Assembly: GCA_964023275.1 (NCBI GenBank) | Contig: OZ029921.1 | Location: forward strand, 4,817,955-4,881,954 | DNA length: 64,000 nucleotides | Origin: Norana najaformis | Lineage: Eukaryota > Annelida > Clitellata > Crassiclitellata > Hormogastridae | Direction of reading: 5' to 3' | Part shown: in pieces, positions 4,154 through 36,700 of the stretch | Numbering within the stretch: position 1 is the first letter of the stretch | How the letters are laid out: every line of letters starts with the position of its first letter | Program-made: the position numbers and the translations under genes | Notes under the pieces: generated by a model | Seen by the model: only the letters and a program-made list of their open reading frames with translations | The model's database searches: none | Told to the model about the DNA's origin: nothing

Positions 4154-4295
4154 AATATGATACATGATGTCGCCTTCCGAAGCACCTTTTCTATGGAAAA
4201 AAATTGACGAGTTTTAGCCAACCCAGACAGTTTTTTCTCCATAGCCTTTTTTTATAAGTCCCGAGGGATCACAAGTACCTCGGGCAAAATAATAA
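4154..4295 (+). mobile_element. LINE family A 3' end, hairpin copy a
   Basis: Truncated element ending in a perfect stem CCCGAGG (4260-4266), 11-base loop, CCTCGGG (4278-4284) and AAATAATAAC. It shares TGACGAGTTTTAGCC and the TTTTTTATAA run with the 35396-35690 copy. (ATG)n(AAT)n precedes it and (ACT)n follows. Confidence 0.7.
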
Positions 4296-4296
4296 C

Positions 4297-4393
4297 AACT
4301 ACTACTACTACCACTACTACTACTACTACCACCACCACTACTACTACTACTACTACTCCCACTACTACTACAACTACTACTACTACTACTACT
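4297..4393 (+). repeat. (ACT/ACC)n microsatellite between two LINE family A tails
   Basis: Trinucleotide run of about 97 bases starting directly after the tail of hairpin copy a. Confidence 0.85.
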
Positions 4394-30700: not shown

Positions 30701-33700
30701 TTTTCCCTTCCCTTTTCTTTTTCCTCCTTCTCCTCCACATGATCCTCTTCTTTCTCAAATTCATCTTTTTCGCCTTTCTTTCCCCCTTCTTTCCTTTCTT
30801 CTATTTCCTATACTTTTTCCTCTTCTTTTTCCTCTTCGAATAGTCTTCTTACATCACACAATAACCTGCAGAAGAAGACCAACTGACTGCTACTAGACAA
30901 TTATGTCTACGAATATTACGATCAAACTGCTGAAAAACGTCAATATTATGCTACACAGTGGTCTATACGGTAGTGCGCTTTGTCGACAATCCAGTGATTT
31001 TTTTTTTCGAGACTGCTGAGCGGATTGCGTGTGACGACCCTGGACAAGTCGTTCGCGCTCATCTGTCTCTGCCACCAAGCAGCATAATTTGATATGGATA
31101 TAAGCTGGGAAGTAACATTAAACCCTGCGATAAGCTGGCCTCGTGTTCAGCACCTTGGGATTCGTCTTTTGTCCGCTCAAGAGCTGAAAGCAGGAAATGA
31201 GCGTCTGCCCTGCGATCCAAATTACTTTACTTTGCTAGTGTGGTCTTTAATAGTAGCTGAGACGACAATTTACATCCATGAGCATTAGGACCAAACTGTT
31301 TCAAGAGGAATTTATAGATACTCAGGTCTTTTACAATGGCGTCTCCATAAATTCAGTCCTATACGATATGAGGCCGTAGTCAGTATTAGAGTACACCATA
31401 TATATTCATAGTAGTTCCAATGTTTAACGACATCTTATGGCATAAACAGCCGTTGACGTCGCTCTCCTCCTTTATCCAGACTTGGGACTGGCTCTACCCG
31501 ACTAAAAGCAGTGGCGGAGTTAATATATATTCATGTATAATAGAGAGATTTATGTGGAGCCAGTATTAGAAACATGTATGGCAATTACTTATATCTGAGC
31601 TGAAATCAGAAGAACAGCATCTAACCCTGACAGACTGCCAATGGTATGAAGTGTTAGGGACTTCATTTTTAGTCTCGGCATATGAGGGCAGGGGGCCAAT
31701 CCTCTCCTACCACCTGGTCTTCCAGCCGACAGTATGCAGTGAGCGTACTCATTTTACAGCTGAGTTCCCTAGAAGGCGGGATTTGAACCCCGACCTTTAA
31801 CCCCGAACTTTTGGTTAGCAGTCTAGCACGCTAACCACCAGCAGAACAGTAGCAGAATGTAAGCACAAATGGCTGTGCTCCGTATCAGACAATTTATTGC
31901 TGGTCACGCTAATTTTAAGGGTATACAGTTAAATGCGGGGAGAGATACAGACGGAGGGCAGCGTGTTCTACAGGGTAGACGATCGCTTAAGAATGGCGCT
32001 TGAGCAAATGTCACGAACCAGAGATGGTATCAAGAGGGAAAACATAATATGTCTGTATCGATTCGGCTGAGATCAGAGAAAGGGACAGCGGGAGGGAGCG
32101 AGGGAAAGAAGGGATGGATGGTTGGAAGGAGGGAGAGAGGAAGCACGGACGACCGACGTCTGTGGAAATAAAAGACGGATAAGGAGATGTAATCCCTTCG
32201 GAAAGGTAGCTTTAGGCTGTTCCAGGCAATTGCCATTGGCCACGGTCTCTTATCTCTTGATATGGATTTCACTCCGTCTTATTTTCTTCTTCTCTTTGTC
32301 TCTCTCTCTCTCTCTCTCTCTCTGTCGTTCCCTCTCTTTTCCTCTCTCTTTGTCTCTATCTCATTCCCTCTCTCTTGCTCTTCTTATTTCTCTCTCCTTC
32401 TCTCTGTGGATTTCACTCTTTCGTCTTACTCTCTGTCTCTGTCTCCGTCTCTATCTATCTATCTATCTATCTATCTATCTATCTATCTATCTATCTATCT
32501 ATCTATCTATCTATCAATCTATCTATCTATCTATCTATCTATCTATCTATCTATCTATCTATCTATCTATCTATCTATCTATCTATCGATCGATCGATCG
32601 ATCGATCGATCGATCGATCGATCTATCTGTCTATCATAAAGGTATTCATCACTATTTGACTGCAATTACCCAAAATTATGTTGCTGACTGTAACGTGTTA
32701 CTGTGCAATAACTATTAAAGAGATTGCCAGCGGTGTCATCGTTTAGTTTGTGCAAATCTAAAGTGTTTTATGCAGGAAATGTCGAAAAAGATTCAGTTCC
32801 AAGACAGGACAGAAATCAGAGAAGACTGCCTGCCTTCTATCTTCCAACTGGAATATATTGCTATTGATCCAACCACGCAGCCGGGGTTCACAGGCCGGGC
32901 CATTTCATACCCCATCCCAACAGGTGCTCCCTTGGCCTCTCTGATGCTCTTTAACCTTTGACCTCGACTCCCTTTGACTTCCTCCTAACCTCCAGCGCCA
33001 TCTAGGTATGGCTCGTAGACTTCCTGCAGCGTATCGAGCGCTAAATAAACGCTTTCATCCGCTTACTTCCGTTTCTCCTCCAGCGAAATTGATGAATTGA
33101 AATCTTCCACGAGCCATCCATATATTTCCAATTTCAGTCTTCCAGTTCTACCCGCTTCAGTTTAATGGTATATAATATAATTATATATACAAACGCGAAA
33201 TGCACGCATATAAATGTATAAATATATGGAACTAAAATTAGACGTAAGATACCGTCTCCGACTCTCCATAGACTCAATCTTATACGATATGAAAGCGTAG
33301 AAAGTAATAGAGCAGACCCTGTGTGTATGTATGTGTGTGTGTGTGTGTGTGTGTGTGTGTGTGTGTGTGTGTGTGTGTGTGTGTGTGTGTGTGTGTGTGT
33401 GTGTGTGTGTGTGTGTGTGTGTAGGCAGTAATAGAAATATATGTGGCAATTACATATATCTCGACTGAAATCAGCATGCATTTTTATATAGAGCTGTATA
33501 TAGTTATACCATAGGCGTGGCCGAAGTATGTATGGGTTTGGTACCTTGAACTTACAGTAGAAATATGTATATATGGCTGTTAGACATCATAGATCATTCT
33601 GTATGTTCGCCCTATGAATAAACCTAAAAATATATATACACAGACGTATGTTCATGTGTGGTTTTTATATGTACACTTAATTATTTTGACATATATGTTA

Positions 33701-36700
33701 TTTCATTGGAACGATCGCTTATAATCAACTGAGTTGATTGTATTGCGGTCCGGATAATTTAAGGACTACTTTATGAGCTCCATTGTTTTGTTCGCTTTAG
33801 TTTAGGGCACGCACCGGAAGCCAATTAAGTTCTTAGGTTCTCAAAGCACAGTAAGGGCAATTGTTCAAAAATGAATTGGTGTAATTAAGTCAAGACGGTA
33901 CGAAGAGGTCTTCTGAACAGATGGATCTTCATGTCAAATATCTGCATGTATGCATGCATAATAGCTATATTTGAGAAACTCAAAATGCGCCGTATTTAAT
34001 GTCTCAATACATACATAAATAGTACATACATACATGTATGCACTCATGCATACATATACACATACATACATGCATATATACATACATACATACAATCATA
34101 CGTACATACATACATACATGCATACAGACATGCAGACATACGTACATACATGCTTTTGAATGGTACCAAAGGGCGCTATAATAAGTGTCTAAGTACATAT
34201 ATACAAAAGTAGTCAACGTATTCTTTAAATCCTGAGGGATCATATATACCTGGGGTAAAAAATATTATTAATCACAATAATAGTAAAAATAATTTGCCAC
34301 TGGACGAATTCTGACAATAGTATCTCAATTATGCTTGCTTCGCAACTGAATGATGTAGCAAATTATACTTCTTGTTGTGACAGAGGCAATCGTGTGTAAA
34401 CAGCTTGCCCAAGGACGTCGCTCGGCTTTTGCTCGACAATCGATCGTTGGAATATAACATTACAAGCCAAACGAGTTACTGTTTGGACCATTGCTTAACA
34501 CTATGTATTTGTATATATGCATGTATTTATGTACATATGTAAGTATGTATTCGCCGAGTGTATGTAAGCATGCATATAATACAATACAACAGAACTGAGA
34601 TTTGATACTGACCCCCTTACAAAGTTGCGAAATGATCATTAAAGCCGGGCAACAATTAAACATCAGCCATAAACATACTGGAAGTTTTTATTTAGAAGGA
34701 AGGTAGTCTCGGTAAGACAGTGCGAATATCAGATGGGAGACAATTACAAATGATGGACCAGTTACTCTGAATGAGCGCCGGCCAAAGCCAAGACGTGTAC
34801 AAGAACCATAATTATACTTTCCAGACCGTGCGGACCTATGAAATAATTACCCATTAAGTCTTATCTCTCTGCGATTTCTGCCAGGTAAAATGGCATATGA
34901 TTTGCACGTAACTTGTAAATGAGGAGCTAGAATGCATCCATGATTGTATGTTTGTATGCATGTATGTACATATTGTACGTACTAGGTAGTTAGTTATGCA
35001 ATAATGATGATGATGATGATGATGATGATGATAATAATAATAATAATAATAATAATAATAATAATAATAATAATAATAATAATAATAATAATAATAATAA
35101 TAATAATCTTTGTATCTTTGGCGTTCAAGACTCTCGGCCCAATCAACAACAGTGGCCTATTCCTCATAACAGAGTTAGGGCGCTATCTCTCTCGTATAAC
35201 CGGTGACATGAGAGAAACCAGTTATCTTTTCCAGCGCATCGATGTCACAATTCAACGCTTTAATTCTACTGCCTTCCACGGTATTTTGCCCCGCCAGATC
35301 TTGACGACGTCTAGCCGTCCCAGAATTCTTTATCCTCCAGATAATTTTTTTGATCCTGAGGGATCATATATACCTCGGGTAAAAAAATAATAATGCAATA
35401 TTATTTTGTTCCCCTCGCTGTTGAAACTCTAGGCCCAATTAATAACGCAGGGCTCACTTTCATAACTGAGCTTGGGCGCTCTCTGACGCTGGTTTCTGGT
35501 GACAAAGGAGAGGAATGCCATCTGTTTCAACGCCTGTCAGTTGCCATCCAACGATTTAATGCTGTCGCCTCCGGAGCACCTTCTCTACGCCAAAGCTTGA
35601 CGAGTTTTAGCCATCCCAGTTTTTCTCCGGACCATTTTTTATAAATCCCGAGGGAATCATAAGTACCTCGAGCACAAAAAAATAATAATATTGCTCATTA
35701 CTCATTAATACTCAGTATTGTCTCCGAATTAATTTTTTCACCACTTGATGGATTATACACACCTCGGGTAAAAATATTAATAATTATTATTTTTGAATCC
35801 TGAGTGATCATATATACCTCGGGTAAAAAATAATAATACTACAATTTATACAGCGCCGTAGCTTAGCCGAGACCGAAGAAAAGGGCGCTGTACATGAGTT
35901 AAAAAATCGACAGCAGTCATATGATATCTTAAAAAGATATGTTTTGAGCCCTGACTTGAATGTATCCAGGAATGGGTAGGTAGGTCCATGTAGGTATGTG
36001 TACCCCAGAGGCGCTAAACCAGCTGTAACCTAACAAATTTTAAGATGTAAACATGACTTTCTGAGGTATCAGAAAAACTTTCTAAAAACAGCGGTTGTTC
36101 TTACTTCTCAGATGCCAATGACACAAGACTACTTCCGGTCGTGCTCTTTGTCCACGGCGAATCGTACGACACCGGAACCGGAAATGCCTACGACGGAAGT
36201 ATTCTATCAGCGTTTGGTCAAATAGTTGTCATTACGATGAACTACCGTCTCGGAGTCCTAGGTAAACATACATATATTACTACTACTACTACAACCACCA
36301 CCACCACCACTACTACTACTACTACCACTACTACTACTACTACTACTACTACTATATGGAAATCAGACCTCGTTCTCATGAGTGTCGAGGAAGGGCCATG
36401 CAAATGAGATGACACTATAGCGCTGGGAAGGCGTTGGAAAAGAAAATTTGCCTCACGAGTTATATACCATTGATGATTGATGGACTGCAGCCAACCTCCC
36501 CAATGAAATCCACCCCAAGGGTTGATTGGGGCTAGGGATTCAAAAGCAAAATCATTACTTATTAATTTAGTTATTAATATTACTATTATTGTTGTTGTTA
36601 ATTTTAATAGTCATGACAAATTTGCATACCTAATGAAGACATTTTCGAATTGTCTTTTGCAATGATCTTTAGTTGCTTAGGCACAAAACGTAGACTACAT

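Follow-up and report, generated by a model that had tools for sequence, protein, structure and literature searches.

The window analysed here is a stretch of 64,000 nucleotides (nt) from the annelid Norana najaformis (contig OZ029921.1, positions 4,817,955 to 4,881,954, forward strand). It carries a series of truncated and decayed 3′ ends from a non-long terminal repeat (non-LTR) retrotransposon family, in which a 25-nt hairpin with a 7-bp stem precedes a tail that is usually AAT-rich. An earlier note on this DNA had listed such stems at five places, assigned them to a long interspersed nuclear element (LINE) and read their variation as covariation arising from selection for an RNA structure.

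Hairpin-bearing 3′ ends in the window

All five stems are present. Three have 7/7 pairs (4260-4284, CCCGAGG/CCTCGGG; 4452-4476, CCTGAGG/CCTCAGG; 35355-35379, CCTGAGG/CCTCGGG with T.G at pair 3), and two carry one mismatch each, namely T.C at 35799-35823 (CCTGAGT/CCTCGGG) and C.A at 35647-35672 (CCCGAGG/CCTCGAG, with a 12-nt loop). Four relics lie beyond these five, at 12204-12228 and 34231-34255 (6/7 pairs each), at approximately 35744-35768, and at 56750, where only the 5′ arm and the loop start are seen. Every relic is on the + strand and runs into an A-rich tail, AAT-like except at 12204. The features are listed below; L numbers denote places in the genome.

4170..4296, + strand: subfamily B 3′ end (subfamily by eye), with a short coding relic, 3′ untranslated region (UTR), hairpin 4260-4284 and CAAAATAATAAC tail
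4388..4500, + strand: subfamily A 3′ end with hairpin 4452-4476, downstream of the B copy and an (ACT)n tract; matches L041, L042 and L077
12180..12240, + strand: heavily 5′-truncated copy, hairpin 12204-12228 with one mismatch (C.T); tail AAATAT-rich, not AAT
34205..34272, + strand: heavily 5′-truncated copy (subfamily C by eye), hairpin 34231-34255 with one mismatch (G.G)
35031..35107, + strand: (AAT)n run lying at the 5′ junction of the 35109..35395 copy
35109..35395, + strand: subfamily C copy with C-terminal coding relic, 3′ UTR, hairpin 35355-35379 and AAT tail
35400..35692, + strand: subfamily B copy with C-terminal coding relic, a stop before the 3′ UTR, hairpin 35647-35672 and AAT tail
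35715..35782, + strand: decayed subfamily I tail (by eye), hairpin relic CTTGATG/CCTCGGG at ~35744-35768
35785..35838, + strand: heavily truncated tail (subfamily C by eye), hairpin 35799-35823 with one mismatch (T.C)
56735..56794, + strand: truncated tail, CCTGTGG GATCA without a 3′ arm, then TAAAATAAT repeats

The 3′ UTR of the 4170..4296 copy is that of L045, L157 and L159, and the tail at 35715..35782 has the flank TTTTTTCACCA and the GATTA loop of subfamily I copies. The four tails at 35109-35838 are stacked one behind another, as expected if new copies insert into the tails of older ones. Within the window alone, a 12-mer search allowing up to 2 mismatches gave 14 matches where 13.8 would arise by chance. 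The earlier note had pair 3 switching between C:G and T:A as a unit, a description whose basis is one copy with T:A (4452) and two with C:G, the other intact or near-intact copies having T.G; the genome-wide counts do not bear it out (see below).

Directly after the last of the stacked tails, at 35850-35891, lies an inverted repeat (ACAGCGCC...GGCGCTGT), presumably of a kind seen at other retroelement ends, and a relic whose C-terminal motif is similar lies on the minus strand at 36242-36610, beside a 77-nt (TAC)n run. The window further contains exons of a carboxylesterase-family gene (9216-41950; COesterase, E 5.3e-19 and 2.5e-34), which we take to resemble neuroligin, a pyrimidine-rich tandem array (14657-15470; period 53, 15.4 copies) and exons of a salt-inducible kinase 3-like gene (58913-62969), with a 689-aa frame and a SIK3 UBA match below the Pfam cut-off (E 7.1e-5).

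The hairpin and its retrotransposon across the genome

In the host genome (608 Mb, 17 contigs), the pattern CCYGAGKGATCA has 2297 matches (1162 + 1135) compared with 30 (18 + 12) for the same pattern read backwards, a number far above chance. A pattern fixing only the loop start and the tail gave 109 + 96 matches against 0 + 2 backwards, and a hairpin-free pattern, consisting of the T-run and tail only, gave 505 overlapping matches (316 + 189) against 35 + 52. From the hairpin-free matches listed, 82 distinct sites were taken, at which the best stem had 7 pairs in 36 and 6 pairs in 24, compared with 1.2 and 14.5 in shuffles. As every pattern sample requires hairpin parts or the tail, subfamilies lacking the hairpin are invisible to these searches, or nearly so. 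The first 100 places in the list of 205 loop-start and tail matches supplied a sample of 91 copies, chosen mainly regardless of the stem; nine places were left out, five of them because the visible 3′ arm resembled a simple repeat or another loop length, which gives the sample a slight lean towards pairing. Six identical D-type tails, ~6-11 kb apart at G000:C1:40033590-40071014, probably arose by tandem or segmental duplication. The prokaryote and viral collections gave 35 stretches matching the tail; in 0/35 was there a 5′ arm beginning CCY, or AATAAT at a distance of up to 20 nt, and these matches were dismissed as chance.

A full-looking copy of subfamily H in L154, ~3.4 kb long, starts with CTCTGGAATGGCCCTCGG after (AAT)n at ~1562 and ends in the hairpin and an A/AAT tail; its single open reading frame (ORF), at 1875-4883, encodes 1002 aa. 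The protein has an N-terminal C..C..H..H..C, zinc finger-like motif and a reverse transcriptase (RT) domain (RVT_1 in Pfam, E 1.4e-14) with YLDD at the catalytic site. Its best PDB matches, which cover solved structures only, are R2 proteins (E 1.4e-7, residues 287-560), and by these matches the protein is R2-related. In the L154 and L155 ORFs Pfam gives only RVT_1 (E up to 1), with no APE-type endonuclease domain. Two C-terminal motifs, CTCG..H..C (CxC..H..C) and KRPDG(x)nWDVTV, were read directly; together they may be a restriction-like-endonuclease (PD-(D/E)XK-type) signature, a reading that the tests support without settling it. In a PDB profile search the C-terminal region gave a single match, to the C-terminal part of an R2 protein, sub-threshold at E = 1.5.

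The element is oriented with respect to its surroundings. AAT runs (at least 3 units) occur within 100 nt upstream in 40/91 copies and ATT runs in 3/91, the corresponding values for random window stretches being 1.9% and 0.9%; an AAT tail was the criterion by which copies entered the sample, and it leaves their upstream side free. A 5′ (AAT)n run is present in L154 and absent from L155. The assignment of the hairpins to retroelement 3′ ends holds, the family being a non-LTR retrotransposon that favours AAT repeats.

The hairpins are also linked to protein-coding ends. With the C-terminal relic of the window as protein query, 150 of 3217 candidates were scored, and 19 of 20 places hand-picked from those 150 have both arms in register, with at most 3 of 14 letters off either stem type (L162 is the one without a 3′ arm); a shared upstream ORF, which the earlier note had named as support, is present. 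Among 85 C-terminal matches in the loci sampled, 54 reach the C-terminus, 45 of these 54 have hairpin-like arms downstream, and in 40 of these 45 the 5′ arm starts 41-52 nt past the coding match. Viewed from the hairpin, a coding end lies within 500 nt in 34/91 copies. No short interspersed nuclear element (SINE) partner was seen among the copies, 60/91 of which share upstream sequence of graded lengths with another copy; 12 copies share >120 nt without a coding match, four of these forming two pairs that resemble duplications. A protein search in viral contigs confirmed nothing. Two side observations concern the coding ends. Five tandem C-terminal matches with ~388-nt spacing at G000:C13:12045105-12046815 make up a small satellite derived from the 3′ ends of LINEs, and in L150 a C-terminal match is followed by a further divergent 3′ end, with ACCTTTGGGATACAATCCTTTGGGT before ATG/AAT repeats, perhaps another stem type, to which two sites among the hairpin-free pattern matches listed look similar.

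The published systems closest to this family are compared here on the available parts of the sources cited. R2 proteins use 3′ UTR structures that are needed for priming (PMC12222951, PMC12180492, PMC4117753). The Norana family resembles R2 in its single ORF, related RT and C-terminal zinc finger and PD..D-like motif, but R2 is specific to 28S ribosomal DNA whereas the Norana family favours AAT repeats, its 25-nt hairpin follows a short 3′ UTR in contrast to the 250-nt 3′ UTR of R2Bm or the pseudoknot of R2Tg, and its catalytic site has YLDD rather than the AF/YADD motif (PMC3774820). The restriction-like-endonuclease clades are CRE, R2, R4, NeSL and HERO, some of which target microsatellites (PMC4640811), and the likeness to HERO is by this description only; low-copy R2-Hero elements are reported in molluscs, namely A. 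immaculata and some bivalves (PMC10294476). Dong, of the R4 clade in Bombyx mori, lies in TAA repeats, much as the Norana copies are oriented at AAT runs; it has a reported 5′ self-cleaving ribozyme (hepatitis delta virus-like), and the available part of its published account does not mention a 3′ hairpin (PMC3774820). In the two Norana copies searched, L154 and L155, Rfam gave no ribozyme at E up to 1 (low-complexity matches only in L154, none in L155).

In the zebrafish and eel LINEs ZfL2 and UnaL2, a 3′ stem-loop is required for retrotransposition (PMC4176376). The Norana hairpin likewise stands directly before short repeats, except in subfamily M, but its stem and loop differ and it has no visible SINE partner. 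UnaL2 and ZfL2, of the CR1/L2 clade, carry an APE-type endonuclease, unlike the R2-related protein found here. The UnaL2 precedent drawn by the earlier note thus holds as an analogy for how the hairpin might work and does not extend to kinship. The idea of a 3′ hairpin handle is already known from other elements; for the hairpin itself, no account was found among the titles and abstract openings given by a literature search that left most subscription papers and Repbase outside its reach, so that its absence from print is not shown.

Stem changes among subfamilies

The strongest indication of a conserved structure comes from the young subfamily H, whose 3′ end reads TTTTTGAACA ACCAAGG GATTATACTTA CCTTGGT AAAA(AAT)n where its relatives have CCTGAGG..CCTCGGG. 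Pairs 1 (C-G to A-T) and 4 (G-C to A-T) are altered on both sides, pair 3 has changed from T.G to C-G, and 7/7 pairs are kept. The H C-termini are 95-100% alike over most matches and the stems are near-identical, which indicates that ACCAAGG/CCTTGGT is the state of the source element. H forms a single clade with support 100/99 in a 41-row tree, built on 74 columns only and with many forks open. For five random changes, the chance of all pairs surviving is P = 0.026; with the H 5′ arm given, two random changes in the 3′ arm produce full pairing with P = 0.005.

Ten subfamily hairpins were compared, those of A, C-F, H and I being taken from consensus ends (F from 2 copies), J and K read by eye, and B taken from individual copies, whereas its six-copy consensus gave CCTTGGG with several positions at 50%. 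All 70 of 70 cells pair, and 9/500 shuffles reach the observed score; slid registers score lower and contain no double-sided pair. Across eight subfamily consensus ends, from which the 36/91 copies belonging to no subfamily are left out, the mean identity of the hairpin is 84%, compared with 53% for the 50 nt upstream, and the hairpin is higher in 28/28 pairs. The hairpins have predicted folding energies of -10.3 to -12.7 kcal/mol. Coupled stem changes are absent at the copy level (see below) and appear between subfamilies at H pairs 1 and 4, in one lineage; the structural reading of the hairpin probably holds, on grounds different from those put forward in the earlier note.

Role of the hairpin

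We lean modestly towards the hairpin being the 3′ recognition signal for target-primed reverse transcription in most of the subfamilies seen, replaced in at least one. The element would be a diverse single-ORF non-LTR family whose protein, of ~1000 aa, has an R2-like RT and a restriction-like-endonuclease-like C-terminus. This protein would bind the 7-bp stem and GATYATNNNTA loop on its own RNA and nick an AAT repeat, target-primed reverse transcription would begin immediately 3′ of the hairpin, within the A/AAT tail, and the outcome would be 5′-truncated copies ending in hairpin and AAT; subfamily M would use a different 3′ signal. As regards the interpretation in the earlier note, the retention of a hairpin in source elements is the best reading; M does without a hairpin.

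Several observations weigh against this assignment. First, stem changes among individual copies are independent: 541/637 cells pair in the 91 copies, compared with 540.8 (standard deviation 3.7) after redealing the 3′ arms. Pair 3 (T.G 50, C-G 15, T-A 10, C-A 4, other 12) is paired in 75 copies where 76.2 are expected, with C-A and T-A at the frequencies of independence, and pair 2 lies weakly over expectation (85 against 82.3; uncorrected p 0.018, one of seven tests). Outside H, pair 4 shows no compensation (A meets T in 7/27, G meets T in 16/76, p = 0.39, from 51 copies listed with a changed 5′ position 4 under a pattern that excludes H). Covariation among copies, from which the earlier note argued for selection on the RNA, is accordingly contradicted: under that note's own criterion, independently changing stem bases, the claim fails at the copy level, though the criterion is mainly a readout of decay after insertion. 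The stem CCCGAGG/CCTCGGG contains CpG in both arms, at 5′ positions 3-4 and 3′ positions 4-5. T at position 4 (25/91) and A at position 5 (15/91) are the most frequent changes in the 3′ arm, and the CpG ratio of the window is 0.82; the pair-3 variation noticed in the window is best read as post-insertion decay, largely at CpG sites. Stem changes among dead copies, at CpG sites above all, can mimic covariation.

Second, subfamily M (L075 and L087) has a C-terminus of the same family and an AAT tail with no hairpin between the coding end and the AAT run, so the hairpin is widespread in the family, not universal, and not needed by every relative. The two M copies are near-identical, their reading frame runs on past the end of their relatives, and their 3′ end has a ~29-nt repeat (CAATAGATTTGTATCATAATTGAAGTGA) before (AAT)n. 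In L087 the closest stretch to the stem is 5/14 letters off, and in L075 the sole close stem match lies 795 nt further on, in another copy. M-type ends precede AAT runs in L079, L103, L154 and L169, and partly in L163; the last 90 nt of M with 12 nt of tail have a predicted fold of -20.3 kcal/mol (no control). In a second protein search, made with the protein of another subfamily, L075 and L087 are among 41 rows of equal score out of 150, and three rows of this block have 1175-aa open frames (G000:C1:62108900, C7:14362434, C10:9134507); M may be abundant and young.

Third, 12 further 121-nt slices, picked from the same 150 matches after this block of 41 rows was left out (presumed H, although two of its members proved to be M), contained the whole hairpin in 5 cases, part of it in 1 and none in 6. 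The double-sided stem changes represent one lineage or event and cannot alone prove selection, and, pair 3 of B apart, nine of the ten subfamily stems are identical, such that the conserved entity may be the sequence. Folding predicts a lower helix joining the T-run (U-run) to the A-run in 4/6 subfamilies: C, H, I and B have it, A and D do not. Finally, the endonuclease assignment consists of a motif and a sub-threshold alignment, and the model of the C-terminal 223 aa is poor (pLDDT 50.6).

We consider it unlikely that the hairpin is kept for formation or stability of the transcript 3′ end, as a processing signal or protective end, rather than for RT recognition. The position of the hairpin at the very 3′ end, at the distance from the coding match given above, is consistent with such a role, conservation and pairing are silent on which protein reads the hairpin, and the different 3′ end of M is compatible with either function; however, the hairpin is followed by AAT repeats and not by a fixed RNA end, and priming by the related R2 proteins depends on structures in the 3′ UTR, as cited above. 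We likewise doubt that no selection on RNA has acted, the hairpin being a conserved sequence motif and the H arms having been matched by quasi-palindrome correction, with one arm templating the other, or by chance. Coupled changes in one lineage only, independent variation among copies and the ability of M to manage without a hairpin are all in keeping with this explanation, but templated correction should erase T.G wobble, yet T.G is found in 8/10 subfamily hairpins, and chance would have to keep all pairs through five changes, at the low probability given above. Direct selection visible as covariation of individual copies at pair 3 is very improbable: the window does hold 4260 (C:G) and 4452 (T:A), but the copy counts and the CpG positions in both arms already speak against it.

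A more specific form of the recognition-signal reading is possible, and we advance it tentatively: the 25-nt hairpin and tail may be the whole RNA handle, turning over together with the protein within one genome, H having re-coded its stem and M having swapped its 3′ end. If this were so, each subfamily's enzyme would prefer its own RNA, and parallel lines of RNA-protein recognition would share the same genomic target. If the hairpin is the handle, what an R2-related enzyme recognises here would be very small and would exist in many natural variants of stem and loop, and discrimination between own and other RNA would be testable by swapping ends, including the wholly different M end from the same genome.

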